Of a DNA stretch of 64,000 nt, positions 51,433-59,857 are shown piece after piece. The DNA lies in NCBI GenBank assembly GCA_013327885.1, contig JABUMY010000014.1, positions 1 through 64,000 on the forward strand, given 5' to 3'. A model generated the notes under the pieces. The model did no database searches, was not told the origin of the DNA, and saw only the letters and a list, made by a program, of their open reading frames with translations. A program made the position numbers and the translations under genes. How positions within the stretch are numbered: the stretch's first letter is position 1; each line of letters opens with the position of its first letter. The stretch is from Flavisolibacter longurius (lineage in GTDB: Bacteria > Bacteroidota > Bacteroidia > Chitinophagales > Chitinophagaceae).

Positions 51433-51505
51433 GCGGAAGTAGCTCACCTGGTAGAGCGACAGCTTCCCAAGCTGTAGGTAGCGGGTTCGAGTCCCGTCTT
51501 CCGCT
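51433..51505 (+). tRNA. tRNA-Gly (anticodon CCC)
   Basis: GCGGAAG acceptor arm paired with CTTCCGC, D-arm AGCTC-ACCTGGTA-GAGC, anticodon stem ACAGC/GCTGT with loop TTCCCAA, T-arm GCGGG-TTCGAGT-CCCGT. CCA is not encoded. Lies on the opposite strand to the his and trp genes. Confidence 0.95.
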
Positions 51506-51548
51506 CAACTTTCTTTATTTCAATTCTTGTAGGTAAAGAAATATGCCG

Positions 51549-52319
51549 CTACGCTAAAACTGTTCCCAAAAATTGTTTGGTGACGGCTTCCACATCACCA
51601 CCACCCTCAAGTGCCTTGATATACGCACTGCCGATAATGGCGCCGTTTGTATATTTTGATGCCGCTGTAAACGTGGCTTTGTCTTTTATGCCAAAGCCCA
51701 CCAGCACAGGATTTTGCAGGTTCATTGCCTGTAACCGCTGCAGGTAGGTTTTCACCACCGAAAAATCCTTGTCCGACCCCGTTAGGCTCGATGAAGAAAC
51801 CGCGTACAAAAAACCGGTGCTCAAGCTATCCAGCTTGCGGATACGCTCTTCGGATGTTTCCGGCGTGACGAGGAAAATAAAATCAAGGCCGTGCTTTTTA
51901 ACAATGACGCCGTATTCCTTTTCATATTCAAACATGGGAATATCCGGTATGATCAGGCCATCGATGCCCACCTCCGCTGCTTTGGCACAAAAAGCGTCGA
52001 AGCCATATTGCAATAAAGGGTTCAGGTAACCCATCAACACCACCGGTACCGAGATGTCCTTTCGGAAGTCTTTCAATTGCTCAAACAGGGTGGTGATGGT
52101 CATGCCGTTTTGCAAGGCCTGGCTGCCGCTGGCCTGTATCACAGGTCCATCCGCCAGGGGATCGCTGTAAGGCATTCCCAGCTCTATCAGGTCGGCACCC
52201 GACTGCTGCAGCGCTTTCATCACTGGCAGCGTGCTATTCAACTGCGGGTAACCGGCCGTGCAATACACATTTAAGACGTTCTTGTTTTTCCGTTCAAAAA
52301 GTTCCGTGATCCTGCTCAT
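51549..52319 (-). CDS. trpA: tryptophan synthase alpha chain
   Basis: 256 residues. TIM barrel with catalytic Glu in DLIELGMPYSDPLADGPVIQ and Asp in GLIIPDIPMFEY; phosphate loop VGFGIKDKATF. Releases indole for TrpB. The ATG overlaps the DUF695 gene stop (ATGA). Last gene of the trp operon. Confidence 0.96.
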   Translation of the reverse strand: MSRITELFERKNKNVLNVYCTAGYPQLNSTLPVMKALQQSGADLIELGMPYSDPLADGPVIQASGSQALQNGMTITTLFEQLKDFRKDISVPVVLMGYLNPLLQYGFDAFCAKAAEVGIDGLIIPDIPMFEYEKEYGVIVKKHGLDFIFLVTPETSEERIRKLDSLSTGFLYAVSSSSLTGSDKDFSVVKTYLQRLQAMNLQNPVLVGFGIKDKATFTAASKYTNGAIIGSAYIKALEGGGDVEAVTKQFLGTVLA

Positions 52320-52738
52320 AACATTTCATAAAAGGCCGAAACGTTTTTCCATTCGGCATCGGCCTCTGTTTCGTAGAAAGTTTCCCTTTCCACCGTAGAC
52401 AAATAATAATTGAGAAAGCCATCCACCTTCTCGGGTTCCTTTGTATAAAAAATGATCTCCCGCTTGCGAAAAGCCGTTGTATGCCCTACATGGACAGTCT
52501 GCGTTTGTTCTTCGAGGTATTCGATCATTTTTTTCTCCACTTCGTGAAGATAATCGTACTCATCCTCCTGCGGGTGTCCGTACTCGTTATACGTATCCGG
52601 AACGATCCCGATCAACACAACATGGGGGAAACCTGCCTGTATCGATGGATCGGCCAGGTCCTTGTTGATCACGGCCAGCGCCGGGAACCCTTCCACCTCA
52701 AACTCAAACCCCGTATAGGTTGCCGATTTGCTGTTCAT
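52316..52738 (-). CDS. DUF695-like protein inside the trp operon
   Basis: About 140 residues. FEFEVEGFPALAVINKDLAD near the start, GHPQEDEYDYLHEVEKKMIEYLEE, then REIIFYTKEP and ETFYETEADAEWKNVSAFYEML match the DUF695 pattern. Function unknown. Overlaps trpA by 4 bases, so translation is coupled with it. Confidence 0.75.
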   Translation of the reverse strand: MNSKSATYTGFEFEVEGFPALAVINKDLADPSIQAGFPHVVLIGIVPDTYNEYGHPQEDEYDYLHEVEKKMIEYLEEQTQTVHVGHTTAFRKREIIFYTKEPEKVDGFLNYYLSTVERETFYETEADAEWKNVSAFYEML

Positions 52739-52773
52739 ATTTCCTGAATTTAAAAGTCTGTTATGTAAAGCAT

Positions 52774-52822
52774 TCACCACTCACCACTCACCACTCACCA
52801 CTCACCACTCACCACTCACCAC
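52774..52822. repeat. heptanucleotide repeat, 7 exact copies of TCACCAC
   Basis: 49 bases with no interruption. The last two copies supply the stop codon and final residues (GGEW) of trpB. Confidence 0.95.
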
Positions 52823-54008
52823 CATCCATCACCCGCATATAGGTTGCCAGGTCTTTGTCGCCCCTGCCGCTTAAGCAGATCACCACTTTGTCCGATTCTT
52901 TTAACGACAATTGATTCAATGCCGAAAATGCATGGCCTGTTTCCAATGCAGGAATGATCCCTTCCAGCCGGGCCACTTCAAACGAAGCTTTCAGGGCATC
53001 GCTGTCGGTGACGCTTAAAAATTTTCCACGACCACTTTTGTAAAGATGTGCATGCAACGGGCCAATGCCCGGGTAATCTAGCCCCGCCGAAATACTATGC
53101 GGTTCCACAACCTGCCCGTCGCCGGTTTGCATGACCAGTGATTTACTGCCGTGTAAAACGCCTTCCGTTCCCAGTTGCGTAGTGGCAGCGCTCTTCCCGG
53201 AATTGACGCCTTCCCCCGCTGCTTCCACGGCCACCAGCTCCACGGAGGCATCATCCAGAAAATGATAAAACGCACCGGCGGCATTGGAGCCACCACCCAC
53301 GCAGGCAATGACCTTATCGGGCAATTCAGTGCCGGTTTTTTCTTTTAACTGCCGGCGAATCTCTTTGGAGATAACACTTTGAAAACGGGCTACCATATCA
53401 GGGTAAGGGTGGGGTCCCACTACGCTGCCAATTATGTAATGCGTATCGTGCGGATTGTTGATCCAGTCGCGGATAGCCTCGTTGGTAGCGTCTTTCAGCG
53501 TTTTGCTTCCACTGACCGCCGGTACCACTTTCGCACCCAGCATTTTCATGCGGGCTACATTGGGTGCCTGCCGCTGGATATCTTTTTCGCCCATGTACAC
53601 AATGCACTCAATGCCTTTGAGGGCACAAACCGTAGCCGTAGCCACACCGTGCTGGCCTGCACCGGTTTCGGCAATAATGCGCTTTTTGCCCAGCCGCTGT
53701 GCCAGGAGGATTTGACCAACGGTGTTGTTGACTTTATGCGCACCGGTATGACAAAGGTCTTCGCGTTTTAAAAAGAGTTGTGTTCCGTATTGCTTGCTCA
53801 AACGCTCGGCAAAATACAGCGGTGTTGGTCGGCCTACGTAGTCTTCCAGCAATTGCTGGTATTCTTTCTGAAAGCCGGACTCGTTAATGATGTCGAGGTA
53901 TTTAGTACGCAGCTCCTCCACATTACGGTGCAGCATCTCCGGAATGTAGGCCCCGCCAAAGCGGCCGTAATAGCCCTGCTCATCGGGGGCAAAAATGCTT
54001 TTTGTCAT
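52809..54008 (-). CDS. trpB: tryptophan synthase beta chain
   Basis: 399 residues from MTKSIFAPDEQGYYGRFGGAYIPEMLH; a further ATG at 54065 would add 19 atypical residues, so the inner start is preferred. PLP Lys in KREDLCHTGAHKVNN, GAGQHGVATA and CVGGGSNAAGAF. Condenses indole with serine. The C-terminus runs into a heptanucleotide repeat. Confidence 0.95.
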   Translation of the reverse strand: MTKSIFAPDEQGYYGRFGGAYIPEMLHRNVEELRTKYLDIINESGFQKEYQQLLEDYVGRPTPLYFAERLSKQYGTQLFLKREDLCHTGAHKVNNTVGQILLAQRLGKKRIIAETGAGQHGVATATVCALKGIECIVYMGEKDIQRQAPNVARMKMLGAKVVPAVSGSKTLKDATNEAIRDWINNPHDTHYIIGSVVGPHPYPDMVARFQSVISKEIRRQLKEKTGTELPDKVIACVGGGSNAAGAFYHFLDDASVELVAVEAAGEGVNSGKSAATTQLGTEGVLHGSKSLVMQTGDGQVVEPHSISAGLDYPGIGPLHAHLYKSGRGKFLSVTDSDALKASFEVARLEGIIPALETGHAFSALNQLSLKESDKVVICLSGRGDKDLATYMRVMDGGEW

Positions 54009-54135
54009 CCCGTATTCCACTGCCGAACCTTTCTCCTCTGTTTTGCGTGTAATATGATAACTCATGTTGTATCGTATGTTTGAAAAGGGTTGTTCTGGAT
54101 AGAAAAGATATCTCTCCTTTCCCGTGAGCTCCTTT

Positions 54136-54495
54136 TCAAATCGTTTCTAAATTTGTTTTTGTGCGTTCGCTGACGATATTGCCCGTATTCAATACCGTAG
54201 CGGGTTCGAACAGCATTACCCACACTTCTTTCTCCGCAACAGGCTTGTGCTCTACGCCTCTCGGCACGATCAGCATTTCGCCTTCGGTTACTTCCACCGA
54301 ACGGTCCCGGTATTCCATGCGAAAGTTTCCCTTCAACACAAAAAACGCTTCGTCTTCCGCTTCGTGGTGGTGCCAGATAAATTCGCCCAGGAACTTCGCC
54401 AGCTTTACCTGCTGCCCGTTCAATTCCCCCACAATTTTCGGGCTCCAGTATTCGGTTACCAACTCAAACTTCTGCAGGAGATTGATCTTGTCCAT
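54136..54495 (-). CDS. cupin-domain protein in the trp operon
   Basis: About 119 residues. Cupin motifs EFIWHHHEAEDEAFFVLKG and PRGVEHKPVAEKEVW. It overlaps the end of trpF by about 32 bases and sits before trpB. Metal-binding beta-barrel; role unknown. Confidence 0.8.
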   Translation of the reverse strand: MDKINLLQKFELVTEYWSPKIVGELNGQQVKLAKFLGEFIWHHHEAEDEAFFVLKGNFRMEYRDRSVEVTEGEMLIVPRGVEHKPVAEKEVWVMLFEPATVLNTGNIVSERTKTNLETI

Positions 54496-55165
54496 TGTCA
54501 TTTTTTAATTCGGTGATGAATTGCGCCACTTTCTGCATGTCCTTTACACCCGGCTCTGTTTCAAAACGACTGTTGATGTCCACCGCGATCATGTTCTTCG
54601 CGGCGCCTGTTCGCATAAAGTCCCGTACCGTTGCCGCGTCTGTCGGCTCAATGCCACCACTCAGGAAAAAGGGTTTTTGAATGGGTACATCCTGCAGGCG
54701 TTTCCAGTCAAATTTGCGACCGGTGCCGCCGTACAGCGCCTTGTTTTCGCGTTCGCCTTTTGGCGCCGGCACGCCGGTATCGAAAAGGAAAAAATCAGCG
54801 TCTTCGTAATAGTCCTTTATCATCCAGCCCACATGGTCGTTTTCGGCAAAGCGAAAGGCTTTGATCACATCAATGTTGGCAACGATCTTCTGGCATTCGT
54901 ACGGCGTTTCCCTACCGTGAAGCTGCACCATATCCAGCCCGTACTCTTCAATGCTGCGCATAACTTCTTCGTAGCTTGCATCCACAAACACACCCACTTT
55001 GTACAGTTTTACGTTGGCTTTTTTTACAGCAGTGCCACTGAGTCCGGCCCTTCCCACATACCGGGGACTGGGTGGGTAAAAAATAAAACCGGCGTAGCTC
55101 ACATCCAGTTCCGGTAAGGCGAGAAGCTGATCGATCCTGGTGATGCCGCAAACTTTTACTTTCAT
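54464..55165 (-). CDS. trpF: phosphoribosylanthranilate isomerase
   Basis: 233 residues: KVKVCGITR start with catalytic Cys, GFIFYPPSPRYV, VQLHGRE, DTGVPAPKG loop and FLSGGIEP. A C-terminal tail beyond the barrel is rich in charged residues. Confidence 0.95.
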   Translation of the reverse strand: MKVKVCGITRIDQLLALPELDVSYAGFIFYPPSPRYVGRAGLSGTAVKKANVKLYKVGVFVDASYEEVMRSIEEYGLDMVQLHGRETPYECQKIVANIDVIKAFRFAENDHVGWMIKDYYEDADFFLFDTGVPAPKGERENKALYGGTGRKFDWKRLQDVPIQKPFFLSGGIEPTDAATVRDFMRTGAAKNMIAVDINSRFETEPGVKDMQKVAQFITELKNDNGQDQSPAEV

Positions 55166-55259
55166 CCGAGTGCATTTTGACGTTGAATCGTAGCAGCAAT
55201 CGCAGCACCAGGAAAACCTTCCTGTAATGACCTTAAAGATACTATCGTCGCCTTCATCC

Positions 55260-56036
55260 TCACAACTGGTAGGTAAATTCTTTGAAGGCCATCATGGGAC
55301 TTTCCTGCTTCATAAAATTTTCGCCTATTAAAAAACCACGAAAGCCATGGGCTTTCAGGTAATGAATGTTCTTCACATCGTTGATGCCGCTTTCCGCCAC
55401 TTTAATAAAGGCATCATCAATCCTTTCAGCCAGCCGAACCGAATGCTCCAGGTCCACTTCAAAATTTTTGAGGTTACGGTTGTTCACGCCAACAAGATCT
55501 ACCGTATCGCAGATGTGGTCGAGCTCTGTTTCATCATGCAGTTCCAGCAGCACTTCCAGCCCAAGGTTTTTGGCCGCCACCGATAGGGTTTTAACCTGCT
55601 GCGGCGACAGACAGGCAGCGATCAGGAGGATCACATCGGCACCGAAGGCTTTGGCTTCGATCAACTGGTATTCATCGATCATAAAATCCTTGCGCAGGAG
55701 TGGAATACCGTTGTCTCTTGCCGCCACCAGGTCGTCGAGCGAACCACCAAAAAAGCGGTGGTCCGTTAAGATGGAAATACCAGAAGCGCCATAGCCAAAA
55801 TAGGCCTTGGTCACCGCTTCTACGCTGTCGCGGTTGTTGATAACACCTTTCGACGGCGACTGCCGCTTGTACTCCGCAATAATGCCGGTCTTTCGTTCGT
55901 CAAGCAAGGATCTTTTCAGCGAAAGACAAGAGCGGCTGAAATAATGTTCTTTCTCCAGTACGGCAACGGGCCAGTCTTTTTTTCGCTGCGCTACTTCGCC
56001 TTTTTTATGTTCGATGATGGTCTCCAGAATATTCAT
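55260..56036 (-). CDS. trpC: indole-3-glycerol phosphate synthase
   Basis: 258 residues. IIAEYKRQSPSKG, RKDFMIDEYQL, GVNNRNLKNF and KVAESGINDVKNI are the substrate and catalytic segments of IGPS. Confidence 0.96.
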   Translation of the reverse strand: MNILETIIEHKKGEVAQRKKDWPVAVLEKEHYFSRSCLSLKRSLLDERKTGIIAEYKRQSPSKGVINNRDSVEAVTKAYFGYGASGISILTDHRFFGGSLDDLVAARDNGIPLLRKDFMIDEYQLIEAKAFGADVILLIAACLSPQQVKTLSVAAKNLGLEVLLELHDETELDHICDTVDLVGVNNRNLKNFEVDLEHSVRLAERIDDAFIKVAESGINDVKNIHYLKAHGFRGFLIGENFMKQESPMMAFKEFTYQL

Positions 56037-56040
56037 TTCA

Positions 56041-56165
56041 ACACAAATTTTTAAACACGGATTTTTGCACGGATTGCACGAATTTTTTGCCTTACTATTT
56101 ATCTCTTCTCTACTTTTAAAAGTTCGAAATCCTCAAACCAACTACAAACAACAAACAATAAACTA
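56041..56165. repeat. low-complexity repeat CACGGATTTTTGCACGGATTGCACGAATT
   Basis: The 5' part repeats the theme also found at 57168-57210; the 3' part is ctacaaacaacaaacaataaactacaaac. Sits between trpD and trpC. Confidence 0.55.
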
Positions 56166-56172
56166 CAAACTT

Positions 56173-57165
56173 TTACTGCATCTGAATCAGTTTCTGAAAC
56201 GCTGCGAACGCCTTACCGCTTTCCAAACTCTCGCAGGCGGCGTTGTACGCTTCTTCGTAGGTAGCGTAATCGCCCATGCAGTTGAGGGCCATGGCGGCGT
56301 TGGCCAGCACCACGGCGTTCTGCGACCAGGAGCCTTCTCCCTTCAACACTTTCAAAAAAATCTTTGCTGCTTCATCGACCGTGCTGCCGCCATAAATATC
56401 CATTGGTGAAACCGTACGTTTTCCAATCTGCTCTGCAGACAATACTTTTTCACCGCTGTTGGTGATCACTTTTGTGTCGGAGGTCAGGGAGATCTCGTCG
56501 TAGCCATCCAACCCATGAATGATGGTGAAGGGCTTGCCTTCCTGCTGCAACAGGTAGTTGTAAATGCGGGCCATCTCCAGGTTGTATACGCCTACCAACT
56601 GGTATTCGGGCTTGGCAGGATTTACCATTGGTCCCAGCATGTTGAAAAAGGTACGAAAGCCCAGGTTTTTGCGGATGCCGGCAACGGCTTTCAGCGCCGG
56701 GTGAAACAAGGGCGCATGCAAAAAAGTAAAGCCCACTTCGTCGAGCTCGCGGTTCAGGCTGTCGTTGCTGTTTTTAAATTTATAACCCAGCGATTCCATT
56801 ACGTTGGAAGCGCCACTAACGGATGTGGCGCCGTAGTTGCCGTGCTTGGCCACTTTTTTCCCGGCGCCGGCAACAATAAGGCAGGATAAGGTGGAAATGT
56901 TAAACGTATTCTTGCCATCGCCACCGGTACCCACAATGTCCATTACTTTTTGCCCTTTCAGGTCAACCGGCACGGCCAATTCCAGCAGGCCATCCCGAAA
57001 ACCCTGCAGTTCGCTGATGCTGATGCTACGCATAAGGTAGACCGTTATAAAGGCAGTCAGCTCTACATCGTTGTACGTTCCCCTTGCAATGTTGCGCATG
57101 ATCTCCTGCGCCTGCTGGCGGGACAGTGTTTTATGTTCGAATAGCTGTTGTAATATCTTCTTCAT
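56173..57165 (-). CDS. trpD: anthranilate phosphoribosyltransferase
   Basis: 330 residues. IVGTGGDGKNTFNISTLS, KHGNYGATSVSGASNVMESLG and RTFFNMLGPMVNP are the PRPP and anthranilate sites. Confidence 0.96.
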   Translation of the reverse strand: MKKILQQLFEHKTLSRQQAQEIMRNIARGTYNDVELTAFITVYLMRSISISELQGFRDGLLELAVPVDLKGQKVMDIVGTGGDGKNTFNISTLSCLIVAGAGKKVAKHGNYGATSVSGASNVMESLGYKFKNSNDSLNRELDEVGFTFLHAPLFHPALKAVAGIRKNLGFRTFFNMLGPMVNPAKPEYQLVGVYNLEMARIYNYLLQQEGKPFTIIHGLDGYDEISLTSDTKVITNSGEKVLSAEQIGKRTVSPMDIYGGSTVDEAAKIFLKVLKGEGSWSQNAVVLANAAMALNCMGDYATYEEAYNAACESLESGKAFAAFQKLIQMQ

Positions 57166-57312
57166 TTAAACACGAATTGTAAACACGAATTTTTGCACGG
57201 ATTACACGAATTAATTCCCTAACTTCTCAACCTATCAACCTATTCACTTATCAACTTATCAACTTATCAACTTATCAACCTATTAACTTATTAACCCATT
57301 AACTTATCAACC
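57166..57312. repeat. low-complexity repeats in trpG-trpD gap
   Basis: AACACGAATTTTTGCACGGATTACACGAATT, then many copies of TTATCAAC/TTAACTTATCAACCT up to the trpG stop. Confidence 0.6.
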
Positions 57313-57315
57313 ATC

Positions 57316-57882
57316 TCACCGCTTCAGCCAGTTACGGAGAATGGTTTCGCCGTTAGGCGTCAGCACACTTTCGGGGTGAAACTGCACGCCCTGTACATCA
57401 TAGGTTTTGTGTTGCAAAGCCATGATGTAGCCGTTGTTGTCTTCCGCCGTTATTTGCAATGAATCCGGAAAGCCCTCGCGGCTTACCACCCAACTGTGGT
57501 AACGGCCTACCGGGATGGTTTCCGGCAGGTCTTTGAACAAAGGTGTTGGCTCTAACTGGCAGTCAAGGGCAACCCCGTGATACACGGTTGAAAGATTTAC
57601 CAGGGTTCCGCCAAAGGCTTGTCCAATGGCCTGGTGGCCGAGGCAGACACCAAGTATCGATTTGGTGGCAGCATAGGCATCGATCAGGGGTAGCAGTTGT
57701 CCCGCTTCGGAGGGAATGCCCGGGCCGGGTGACAGGATAATCTTATCATACCCAGCCACTTTTTCCAACGGTATTTCATCGTTGCGAAAAACATCCACAT
57801 CAATTCCTTTGTCCACCTGCTTTACCAGGTGAACCAGGTTATAAGTAAACGAATCGTAATTATCAAAAACCAGCAACTTCAT
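57316..57882 (-). CDS. trpG: anthranilate synthase component II (glutamine amidotransferase)
   Basis: 188 residues. FDNYDSFTYNLVHL, LSPGPGIPSEAG, nucleophile Cys in GVCLGHQAIGQAFGG, and VQFHPESVLTPNG. Supplies ammonia to TrpE; in many Bacteroidota it also serves PabB. Confidence 0.96.
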   Translation of the reverse strand: MKLLVFDNYDSFTYNLVHLVKQVDKGIDVDVFRNDEIPLEKVAGYDKIILSPGPGIPSEAGQLLPLIDAYAATKSILGVCLGHQAIGQAFGGTLVNLSTVYHGVALDCQLEPTPLFKDLPETIPVGRYHSWVVSREGFPDSLQITAEDNNGYIMALQHKTYDVQGVQFHPESVLTPNGETILRNWLKR

Positions 57883-57965: not shown

Positions 57966-59381
57966 TCAACCTACTCCCTCCGCCATCTCTATCGCCTTCT
58001 TCAACGCATTTAACTTATTGGCCACTTCCTGCAATTCGCTTTCGGGATCACTGGCGGCCACAATACCGGCACCACCCTGCAGGAACAACGTATTGTCCTT
58101 GCTGAGCAGCGTACGGATCATAATGGCGTGGTTGCAGCTCCTGTCGAAGCCAACAAAACCAATGGCACCACCGTAAAAGCTGCGGGCTGTGGGCTCCAGG
58201 GTGTTGATCAATTGCATGGCCTTGTACTTGGGCGCACCGCTTAGCGTCCCCGCAGGAAAAGTTTTAAAAAGCACATCAAAAGGATTGGTGCCTTCGGCCA
58301 CATCGCCGGTCACTTCGCTTACCATGTGAATCACATGCGAGTAGTATTGAATTTGCTTGTATTGGCTGACTTCCACGTTGGTACAAACAGTGCTCAGGTC
58401 ATTGCGGGCAAGGTCCACCAGCATAACATGCTCGGCGTTTTCCTTGGCATCTTTGGTCAGTTCATCAGCCCGTTGCTGGTCCACGGCATCATCGCCGCTG
58501 CGCTTGAAGGTACCGGCAATGGGGTGAATGATAGCCTTTCCGTTGCGGATGATCAGTTGCGCCTCGGGTGAAGATCCTACCAGCTTGTAATCACCATAAT
58601 CAAAGAAGAAAAGGTAAGGCGATGGGTTGATGTTGCGAAGGGCACGGTACACGTTGAACTCATCCCCGGAAAATGCCTGCTGAAAGCGGCGGCTTAATAC
58701 GATCTGGAAAACATCGCCGCGGTGACAACTGGCAATGCCTTTTTTTACCATCTGGCGAAAGTCTTCGTCTTCCATGTTGGACGATTCGATACCCACAGCG
58801 CGGAAAGGAAACACGGGAACATCCTTGCTGTTGATCAGGCTTTCCACCACGGCCAGCTCGCTTTCCACACCCGCTACTTTGTTCTCGAGCAGGAGCAATT
58901 CATCGCGGTAATGGTTAATGGCAATCACGTATTGATACAAACGGTAACGGGCATACGGGATCTGGTTGCGCACATCCGAGGACTCCTGAAACCGGATGGT
59001 CTCAAACAACTGCACGGCATCAAAGGTGAAATAACCATACAGTCCCTGTGCAAACCGGGCCGCTTTGGTATCGGTAGTTGTGGTTTCAAAGCGTTGCGTA
59101 AAATCCCAGAGGATAGTTTGCAGGGGTTCGTTTCCAGCCAGGGCCGTCCGTTGCGCAGGCTGTCCCGGCAGCTTGGTTTCTATCACGTCTTTCCTGATCT
59201 CAATGCCACCGATGGCATTGATGCCGATAAATGAATAGCTGTTCTCCGCCGCGTGGTGATCGGTGCTCTCGAGAAGAACGGTATCGCGAAAGCGGTCACG
59301 CAGGCGCAGGTAGATGCCAACGGGTGTGTACACATCGGCGAGCATTTTCCGGACTGTCGTTTCAATTTGTATCTTCTTCAT
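57966..59381 (-). CDS. trpE: anthranilate synthase component I
   Basis: 471 residues from ATG at 59381. LESTDHHAAENSYSFIGI contains the tryptophan feedback site region (LLES). Chorismate-binding C-terminus: HPIAGTFKRSGD, ENAEHVMLVDLARNDL, HMVSEVTG and GTLSGAPKYKAM. First structural gene of the trp operon. An ATG at 59393 lies on the terminator T-run and is less likely. Confidence 0.96.
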   Translation of the reverse strand: MKKIQIETTVRKMLADVYTPVGIYLRLRDRFRDTVLLESTDHHAAENSYSFIGINAIGGIEIRKDVIETKLPGQPAQRTALAGNEPLQTILWDFTQRFETTTTDTKAARFAQGLYGYFTFDAVQLFETIRFQESSDVRNQIPYARYRLYQYVIAINHYRDELLLLENKVAGVESELAVVESLINSKDVPVFPFRAVGIESSNMEDEDFRQMVKKGIASCHRGDVFQIVLSRRFQQAFSGDEFNVYRALRNINPSPYLFFFDYGDYKLVGSSPEAQLIIRNGKAIIHPIAGTFKRSGDDAVDQQRADELTKDAKENAEHVMLVDLARNDLSTVCTNVEVSQYKQIQYYSHVIHMVSEVTGDVAEGTNPFDVLFKTFPAGTLSGAPKYKAMQLINTLEPTARSFYGGAIGFVGFDRSCNHAIMIRTLLSKDNTLFLQGGAGIVAASDPESELQEVANKLNALKKAIEMAEGVG

Positions 59382-59392
59382 ACACGGTAACA

Positions 59393-59421
59393 TAAAAAGC
59401 CCCGCTAGTTGCGGGGCTCTG
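59393..59421 (-). terminator. trp attenuator terminator
   Basis: Minus strand AGCCCCGC-AACTA-GCGGGGCT then TTTTT, ending 12 bases before the trpE start. Its left arm (CAGAGCCCCG) can instead pair with CGGGGTTCTG in the end of the leader peptide coding region, forming an antiterminator of 10 pairs including one G-U. Confidence 0.85.
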
Positions 59422-59450
59422 ACTATATTGAATAAACAACGGCAATAGCG

Positions 59451-59510
59451 CTACAGAACCCCGAAAGAGTTTGTATGCCACCACCAAAATTTATTACTGA
59501 TCATTTTCAT
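59451..59510 (-). CDS. trpL: trp operon leader peptide
   Basis: 19 codons: MKMISNKFWWWHTNSFGVL then TAG. Three consecutive TGG Trp codons (9-11). When Trp-tRNA is low, the ribosome should stall there, leaving the CGGGGTTCTG segment (codons 16-19) free to block the terminator. When Trp is plentiful, the ribosome reaches the stop, covers that segment and the terminator forms. A second ATG is at codon 3. Confidence 0.9.
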   Translation of the reverse strand: MKMISNKFWWWHTNSFGVL

Positions 59511-59515
59511 TTGTG

Positions 59516-59547
59516 CAAATATGCGCAAGGATGGACGATTTGGCAAA
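59516..59547 (-). promoter_or_regulatory. candidate trp operon promoter
   Basis: Minus strand TTTG (59547-59544), 20 bases, then CATATTTG (59523-59516), one mismatch to TAnnTTTG. Transcription would begin about where the trpL ATG lies, so trpL may be leaderless or use its second ATG. Confidence 0.5.
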
Positions 59548-59575
59548 CTTTTTTTTAGCTTTTAAAAAAACGGTT

Positions 59576-59857
59576 ATGACAATACAACATAAAGAAGGTG
59601 AAAACAGGGGTGTGTTTTTTATTGCGGAAGAAGAGGAAATTCTCGCCCAGCTAGCTTACGCCAAAAGCAGCGACAATACGATGATCATTGAGCACACCGA
59701 AGTGGATGATGAGCTGCGGGGACAAAATATTGGGTATGAACTGGTGCACAAATCCGTGGAATATGCCCGCATGCACGGCATGAAAGTATCGCCGGTATGC
59801 CCTTTTGCCAAAGCAGTTTTTGACAAAAAGCCGGAGTTTGGAGATGTTTTGGTTTGA
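59576..59857 (+). CDS. GNAT-like N-acetyltransferase (Gtn/YjdJ type)
   Basis: 93 residues. Compact GNAT with VFFIAEEEEILAQLAY, HTEVDDELRGQNIGYELV as the acetyl-CoA loop and VSPVCPFAKAVFDKKPEF, as in small YjdJ-like proteins. Divergent from trpL. Confidence 0.85.
   Translation: MTIQHKEGENRGVFFIAEEEEILAQLAYAKSSDNTMIIEHTEVDDELRGQNIGYELVHKSVEYARMHGMKVSPVCPFAKAVFDKKPEFGDVLV

Follow-up and report, generated by a model that had tools for sequence, protein, structure and literature searches.

The window analysed here (the whole stretch of DNA, 64,000 nucleotides) carries on its minus strand a trp operon that is preceded by a short leader gene, trpL (Table 1). The operon opens with trpE, for which the best NCBIfam match, trpE_most, lies under its cut-off; among the named loci listed, the closest TrpE is that of Flavisolibacter longurius, at 91% identity. 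Two in-frame ATG codons, at 59393 and 59381, could start the gene. The latter, which lies 12 nt beyond the terminator described below, is the likely one, since in 10 of 14 other genomes of the genus TrpE is matched from residues 4-6 of the longer ORF onward. A second chorismate-binding paralogue (G000, contig C7:64166-64969, L002) is 35% identical to TrpE over residues 208-469. Two genes of other kinds are interspersed in the operon, a cupin-domain gene between trpF and trpB (54136-54501, minus strand), whose ORF overlaps the end of trpF, and a DUF695 gene between trpB and trpA (52316-52780, minus strand). Beyond trpA, a tRNA-Gly(CCC) gene (51433-51506, plus strand) separates it from a hisH-like glutamine-amidotransferase gene, both of these lying on the minus strand. 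On the other side, a GNAT acetyltransferase gene (59513-59857, plus strand) points away from the trp operon. The longest ORF that can be assigned to it, beginning at GTG 59513, overlaps the trpL promoter, and its true start is therefore probably downstream.

Table 1. Leader, promoter and operon features, in coordinates of the window.
Feature	Position	Strand	Remarks
-33 promoter element TTTG	59544..59547	(-)	read from sequence
-7 promoter element CATATTTG	59516..59523	(-)	20-nt spacer after TTTG; 5 nt before leader ATG 59510
Leader ORF trpL, 19 codons MKMISNKFWWWHTNSFGVL and stop TAG	59451..59510	(-)	ATG 59510, TAG 59453-59451
Three tandem Trp codons (TGG), putative stall site, part of segment 1	59478..59486	(-)	
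Protector hairpin 1:2	59440..59486	(-)	Trp codons pair with CGCTATTGCC 3' of the stop; by folding, 59486-59477 with 59449-59440
Segment 2 CGGGGTTCTG, left arm of antiterminator	59454..59463	(-)	within last trpL codons; pairs with 59421-59412
Segment 3 CAGAGCCCCGC, common to antiterminator and terminator	59411..59421	(-)	
Intrinsic terminator 3:4 with U-run	59394..59420	(-)	stem 59420-59396, U-run to 59394
trpE, first structural gene	57966..59381	(-)	Pfam Anth_synt_I_N and Chorismate_bind; start taken as ATG 59381
Downstream trpG, trpD, trpC, trpF, cupin, trpB, DUF695, trpA	51549..57882	(-)	named by family matches and gene order

The original prediction described a 19-codon leader with three tandem TGG codons, a segment within it that pairs with the left arm of a terminator, and the terminator itself 12 bases before trpE, and all of these are present in the sequence. 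The promoter-like TTTG-N20-CATATTTG that it placed directly before the leader likewise reads at 59547-59516 (-) and is of Bacteroidota type. The antiterminator comprises 10 pairs on the minus strand before trpE, formed between CGGGGTTCTG and the complementary CAGAGCCCCG in the left part of the terminator. Folding added an element that was absent from the original prediction, a protector hairpin on the Trp codons. Each of these structures is more stable than its shuffled versions, with none of 200 shuffles as good for the whole leader (-44.2 kcal/mol, z -4.85), nor for the antiterminator (-21.0 kcal/mol, z -4.84), the terminator (-20.3 kcal/mol, z -5.53) or the protector (-19.1 kcal/mol, z -3.81) when each was cut out. 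The Trp-codon run alone proves nothing, since TGGTGGTGG is common genome-wide, with 310 occurrences. The trpL locus is, however, the sole place listed by a pattern scan that looked on both strands of the window for short ORFs containing an amino-acid run and having a terminator behind them, and that one scan recovered no leader for any other amino acid in the window.

Tandem-Trp leaders precede trpE in most other Bacteroidota genomes examined. TrpE searches at E 1e-80 matched 15 of 18 genomes of the genus; the family search matched 113 of 147 genomes, the window's own genome and two of the genus included, and the phylum search 114 of 198, leaders being read only where TrpE matched. About 480 bases around the trpE start were read in 15/15 genus, 109/110 other family, 39 class or order and 25/69 other-class genomes. 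Before trpE, a short ORF with two or more consecutive Trp codons is present in 15/15, 105/109, 37/39 and 17/25 of these, respectively. The same rule found 1, 2, 0 and 0 on the reverse complement and a mean of 1.2, 6.0, 0.4 and 1.2 in first-order Markov shuffles. The full WWW occurs in 15 genus, 95 family, 33 class or order and 16 other-class genomes and in no control; counted by leader, three consecutive Trp codons are present in 106 of the 116 genus and family leaders with a detected terminator. The four family exceptions are L142 and L143, with a one-Trp leader, L123, with a match further upstream to the covariance model R1 (described below), and L157, with none in the stretch read. In L142 and L143 a hairpin with a T-run nevertheless follows the single-Trp leader, as judged by eye.

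A terminator-like hairpin lies 3' of the leader in 15/15 genus, 101/105 family, 36/37 class or order and 16/17 other-class genomes, and the same search before the leader, as a control, returned 2/14, 11/94, 14/37 and 5/15. These counts come from a rule relaxed on mismatches and loops, which replaced a stricter one; L058, L159 and L179 fail even the relaxed rule and are counted as misses, although a hairpin and T run are readable by eye in each. The leader hairpins of three family members (L026, L029 and L141) fail the U-run test, and the hairpin may act differently there. Several His codons precede WWW in four leaders of other classes (L179, L188, L191 and L195; e.g. MRHVAYHSAHYYGWWW), which may be a second amino-acid input or chance.

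Conservation extends from the parts to their pairing. Across 115 distinct genus and family leaders, helices 2:3, 3:4 and 1:2 each pair better within than between genomes, with none of 2000 permutations as good; the permutations are uncorrected for shared ancestry, which adds to the result, so within-genome pairing is support and not proof. Among the 36 class and order leaders outside the family, 3:4 and 1:2 pass, but in the same region of segment 2 pairing within genomes has no advantage over mixed pairing (991/2000). For the 16 other-class leaders it is 3:4 and 2:3 that pass (0 and 2 of 2000), and 1:2 that is no better than mixed (647/2000).

A first alignment (A1), of 89 among the 115 leaders from family and genus, brought together two registers of segment 2; pairs were therefore counted separately on the GVL and RGL types: 23 GVL and 56 of 57 RGL leaders (L129 left out), with 36 leaders of neither type uncounted. 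In the 56 RGL family leaders the terminator has 95.1% of its cells paired and 49 cells changed on both sides, neither value being reached in any of 500 shuffles. The antiterminator in the same leaders has 85.0% of cells paired and 11 double-change cells, reached in 1 and 2 of 500 shuffles; slid versions pair at most 59.8%, and the covariation score is less clear (46/500). For the 23 GVL leaders, which share the window's own register, the terminator is again supported (84.8%, 0/500). The antiterminator counts in this set are not above shuffles (79.2% paired, 85/500; slid versions at most 61.1%), because its core is nearly invariant. Covariation is thus strong for the terminator and modest for the antiterminator. 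The RGL consensus fold also joins seven bases of the TGG codons to a segment further downstream (columns 45-52); in this helix 370 of the 392 cells are paired, G facing C or U and U facing A or G. In one leader, L138, segment 3 carries U in place of C and both of its partners carry A in place of G, a change that touches the antiterminator and terminator partners alike and keeps both helices.

From the 56 RGL leaders, none of them of this genus, we built a covariance model, R1. The trpL locus is its sole match in the window's own genome at E 0.001 (73.8 bits, E 1.8e-13), with no second match at that threshold. R1 matches 51 of 78 family genomes at E 1e-6 or better, many of these being training genomes, and in the class sample reaches at most 41.2 bits outside the genus, which makes it a family model. 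We considered whether matches of up to 41 bits might be further copies of the element, and they look like noise: the eight that were fetched lie at hairpins beside other reading frames, and these stretches are without an ATG-started short ORF with tandem Trp codons. A chance origin of the trpL element itself is ruled out by the fold statistics, the leader search on reverse complements and shuffles, and this covariance model made without the genus.

The sequence parts, alternative folds, conservation, covariation and promoter geometry are best explained by a ribosome-mediated transcription attenuator of the trp operon, a reading to which we give a probability of roughly 0.93. A short ORF with tandem Trp codons stands before a trp biosynthetic gene; an intrinsic terminator lies between this leader and the first structural gene; an alternative antiterminator, modest in its covariation, uses the left arm of that terminator; and the Trp codons fall within the protector arm. 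The steps that would join these parts, from transcription start through stalling, coupling and termination to the Trp response, are ones that we infer. RNA polymerase would start at the leader ATG, or a few bases from it, and a ribosome would board the 5' end of the RNA with no Shine-Dalgarno sequence to guide it. A shortage of charged tRNA-Trp would make this ribosome stall on one of the three Trp codons and open the protector hairpin, freeing segment 2 (CGGGGUUCUG) to pair with newly made segment 3; with 2:3 paired, no terminator would form and trpE to trpA would be transcribed. When Trp is plentiful, the ribosome would reach the stop codon and cover segment 2, leaving 3:4 to form the terminator 12 bases before trpE.

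The geometry of the leaders is consistent with such a switch. In 96 of the 116 genus and family leaders, 13-16 nt separate the last Trp codon from segment 2. In 85 of the 116, segment 2 starts within the ORF and is complete by the stop codon; in 21 it runs across the stop, in 9 it comes after it, and in 1 it is weak. Since a ribosome occupies about 12 nt beyond the codon being translated (PMC4833913), one on any Trp codon should leave segment 2 free, and one at the stop codon should cover it. When we modelled a ribosome on the last Trp codon and RNA polymerase at the end of segment 3, 2:3 formed in 14/15 genus and 77/101 family leaders; with the ribosome at the stop, the terminator formed in 13/15 and 80/101, and without a ribosome in 11/15 and 78/101. 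With a stalled ribosome and the whole leader made, the terminator is usually the minimum-energy structure, and only 3/15 genus and 5/101 family leaders retain the antiterminator; the window's own leader then folds at -22.6 kcal/mol with the terminator (z -1.75). Because the terminator usually wins in the full leader even behind a stalled ribosome, the switch is predicted to work kinetically, during transcription, through coupling. The nearly fixed spacing of 13-16 nt, the anatomy and the conservation all fit the Trp attenuation by a ribosome that was originally proposed, as does the lack of any TrpR, TRAP or T-box match over cut-off in the 18 genomes of the genus.

Three other explanations would dispense with some part of this scheme. 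The hairpin might be no more than a partial terminator that constantly reduces trp expression and has a leader ORF beside it by accident; the terminator is indeed the helix that covaries most strongly, and 3:4 usually wins in full-length folds. Such a terminator would have no use for tandem Trp codons, which 105 of 109 family genomes keep against a shuffle mean of 6, nor for their nearly fixed spacing to segment 2, and the antiterminator and protector pairings are conserved as well; we regard it as very unlikely. A still lower probability attaches to a leader that responds directly to a TRAP-like protein or, as a T-box, to tRNA rather than to a translating ribosome. TRAP-like and T-box systems likewise control trp genes through termination. 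However, the Trp-rich ORF is conserved, and neither the T-box covariance model (RF00230) nor the TRAP protein family (PF02081) has a match at E 0.001 in any of the 18 genus genomes, while control genomes do match (B. subtilis for TRAP). TrpR is likewise over its cut-off in none of the 18, with one TrpR-like match under the cut-off in G009. Of all the readings considered, this direct sensing is the least probable.

The remaining one of the three is that of an arrest peptide like TnaC, in which the nascent chain would sense free tryptophan and stall the ribosome. It draws on the peptide itself: the residues after the Trp run are mostly HTN, and WWWHTNS is strikingly conserved in the family. The codons, however, are conserved beyond what the peptide needs. 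Leader Thr codons are ACA in 78 of 84 cases, Asn codons AAC in 78 of 82 and His codons CAT in 81 of 95, whereas the trpE bodies of 44 genus and family members use ACA at 26%, AAC at 35% and CAT at 66%. A bias in Thr and Asn codons so far from that of the trpE bodies indicates selection on the RNA. Synonymous positions show almost no variation, in contrast to trpE, and the RGL consensus fold has the ACA codon paired, so that the peptide is a consequence of the RNA. The stop codon precedes the GGGG core in L010 and L012, and yet the segment-2 RNA stays; outside the family the residues after WWW differ. We judge a TnaC-like peptide to be even less likely than a plain terminator, if slightly ahead of direct sensing, and retain ribosome-mediated attenuation as the explanation of the locus.

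That the leader gene may be leaderless, as was also originally proposed, gains support from a -7-like box held at a nearly fixed distance before the ATG across the family. All 15 genus leaders and 92/103 of the family have this box (A..TT[TC]G) with its end 4-9 nt ahead of the ATG (2 of the 105 family leaders had too little upstream sequence), and TTTG stands 17-23 nt before it in 15/15 and 84/103. In the control 6-nt windows upstream the motif is present, on average, in 1.4 genus leaders (maximum 8/15) and 11.5 family leaders (maximum 51/103), maxima that probably reflect the -33 element, and before all ATGs of the window the same box occurs in 36 of 2020 cases. Outside the family the geometry is sparse, at 14/37 class or order leaders, which is no more than the best control window there, and 5/17 of other classes; near-leaderless geometry is therefore mainly a family trait. 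In F. psychrophilum the corresponding motif, TAnnTTTG, lies at -12 to -5 (PMC9723704), and by this measure transcription would start here at about 59511. From its promoter geometry, then, the trp mRNA is probably leaderless or nearly so.

It is also conceivable that the same attenuator is transcribed from a start further upstream and has an ordinary 5' UTR, which would contradict only the leaderless part and is compatible with attenuation. The first base of the -7 box departs from TAnnTTTG, the box geometry thins out beyond the family, and leaderless mRNAs are rare in the phylum: they make up 5.5% in F. psychrophilum (PMC9723704), and in B. thetaiotaomicron about 3.7% of 5' UTRs are shorter than 10 nt (PMC7366714). 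Against this stand the position of the box, at 4-9 nt in every genus leader and nearly nine-tenths of the family's, and its scarcity both before ATGs of the window at large and in the other 6-nt windows of the 103 family leaders. We consider an upstream start unlikely, though a good deal less so than the three explanations above.

A broader proposal builds on the near-leaderless start, and we hold it as possible rather than likely. Throughout the Chitinophagaceae, the trp attenuator may sit on a leaderless or nearly leaderless mini-mRNA, with selection keeping the -7 box 4-9 nt before the ATG to let a ribosome board the 5' end immediately; elsewhere in the phylum leaderless mRNAs are uncommon, and Shine-Dalgarno sequences are lacking. 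If so, the RNA released at the terminator, about 118 nt long, would itself be a leaderless mRNA or sRNA of small size and might act in trans, like that of S. meliloti. More generally, ribosome-mediated attenuation needs a ribosome close behind RNA polymerase, and a conserved attenuator of this kind would be indirect evidence of such coupling in Bacteroidota. The locus could also serve as a simple reporter for coupling and for leaderless initiation in a phylum with little Shine-Dalgarno use.

The kind of element described here is already known. Attenuation was reportedly surveyed by Vitreschak et al. in 2004. For Bacteroidota the classic enterobacterial design described in the original prediction is not new: the Rfam family Bacteroid-trp (RF01692) is listed for Bacteroidetes (PMC2864571) and is named before the F. 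psychrophilum trp operon (PMC6414381), and strong clues for leader-peptide attenuation of amino-acid operons have been described in F. psychrophilum (PMC9723704). Among the matches listed in the open-access literature, no paper concerns a Chitinophagaceae trp attenuator. Bacteroid-trp resembles the present leader in being a Bacteroidetes Trp leader in the same place before trpE, and differs in peptide, its leaders reading e.g. WWWNNLRQTS where ours reads WWWHTNSxGVL. Its model (gathering score 49) has no match at 59300-59700 up to E 10 and none in the window's own genome. Of 148 phylum-sample genomes, 13 match it (11 over cut-off), all in one other family (f5), as does the control Bacteroides ihuae; it matched 5 of the 19 trpE loci scanned, each over a WWW leader. 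The model of the E. coli leader (RF00513, Trp_leader) scores 31.5 bits at the locus, under its gathering score of 41, and exceeds its cut-off in none of 78 family genomes, 19 of which have a weaker match somewhere; E. coli itself passes. By score, then, the locus is in neither Rfam family, although it is predicted to work like the classic trp attenuator. Tandem-Trp attenuators are thereby documented across a family whose sampled genomes all stay under the cut-offs of both public RNA models.

The likeness to E. coli trpL is close in architecture. In both, a short ORF holds consecutive Trp codons, trpE is preceded by a terminator, and the left arm of that terminator has an alternative partner; segment 2 follows the last Trp codon at 13 nt in E. 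coli and at 13-16 nt in most leaders here. Stall codons, antiterminator and terminator of the enterobacterial design are all present; what does not carry over is the position of segment 2, which follows the stop codon in E. coli and lies inside the ORF here. Moreover, E. coli has two Trp codons in place of three, and here no ordinary 5' UTR is expected and no TrpR exceeds its cut-off in the 18 genus genomes. An attenuator RNA that begins at the trpL ATG has a counterpart in the trpL/rnTrpL of Sinorhizobium meliloti (PMC7298713), which differs in being alphaproteobacterial and in that its RNA and peptide also act in trans. Two features stand out in the present leader, a probable near-leaderless start and an antiterminator arm that is written into the last codons of the leader gene.
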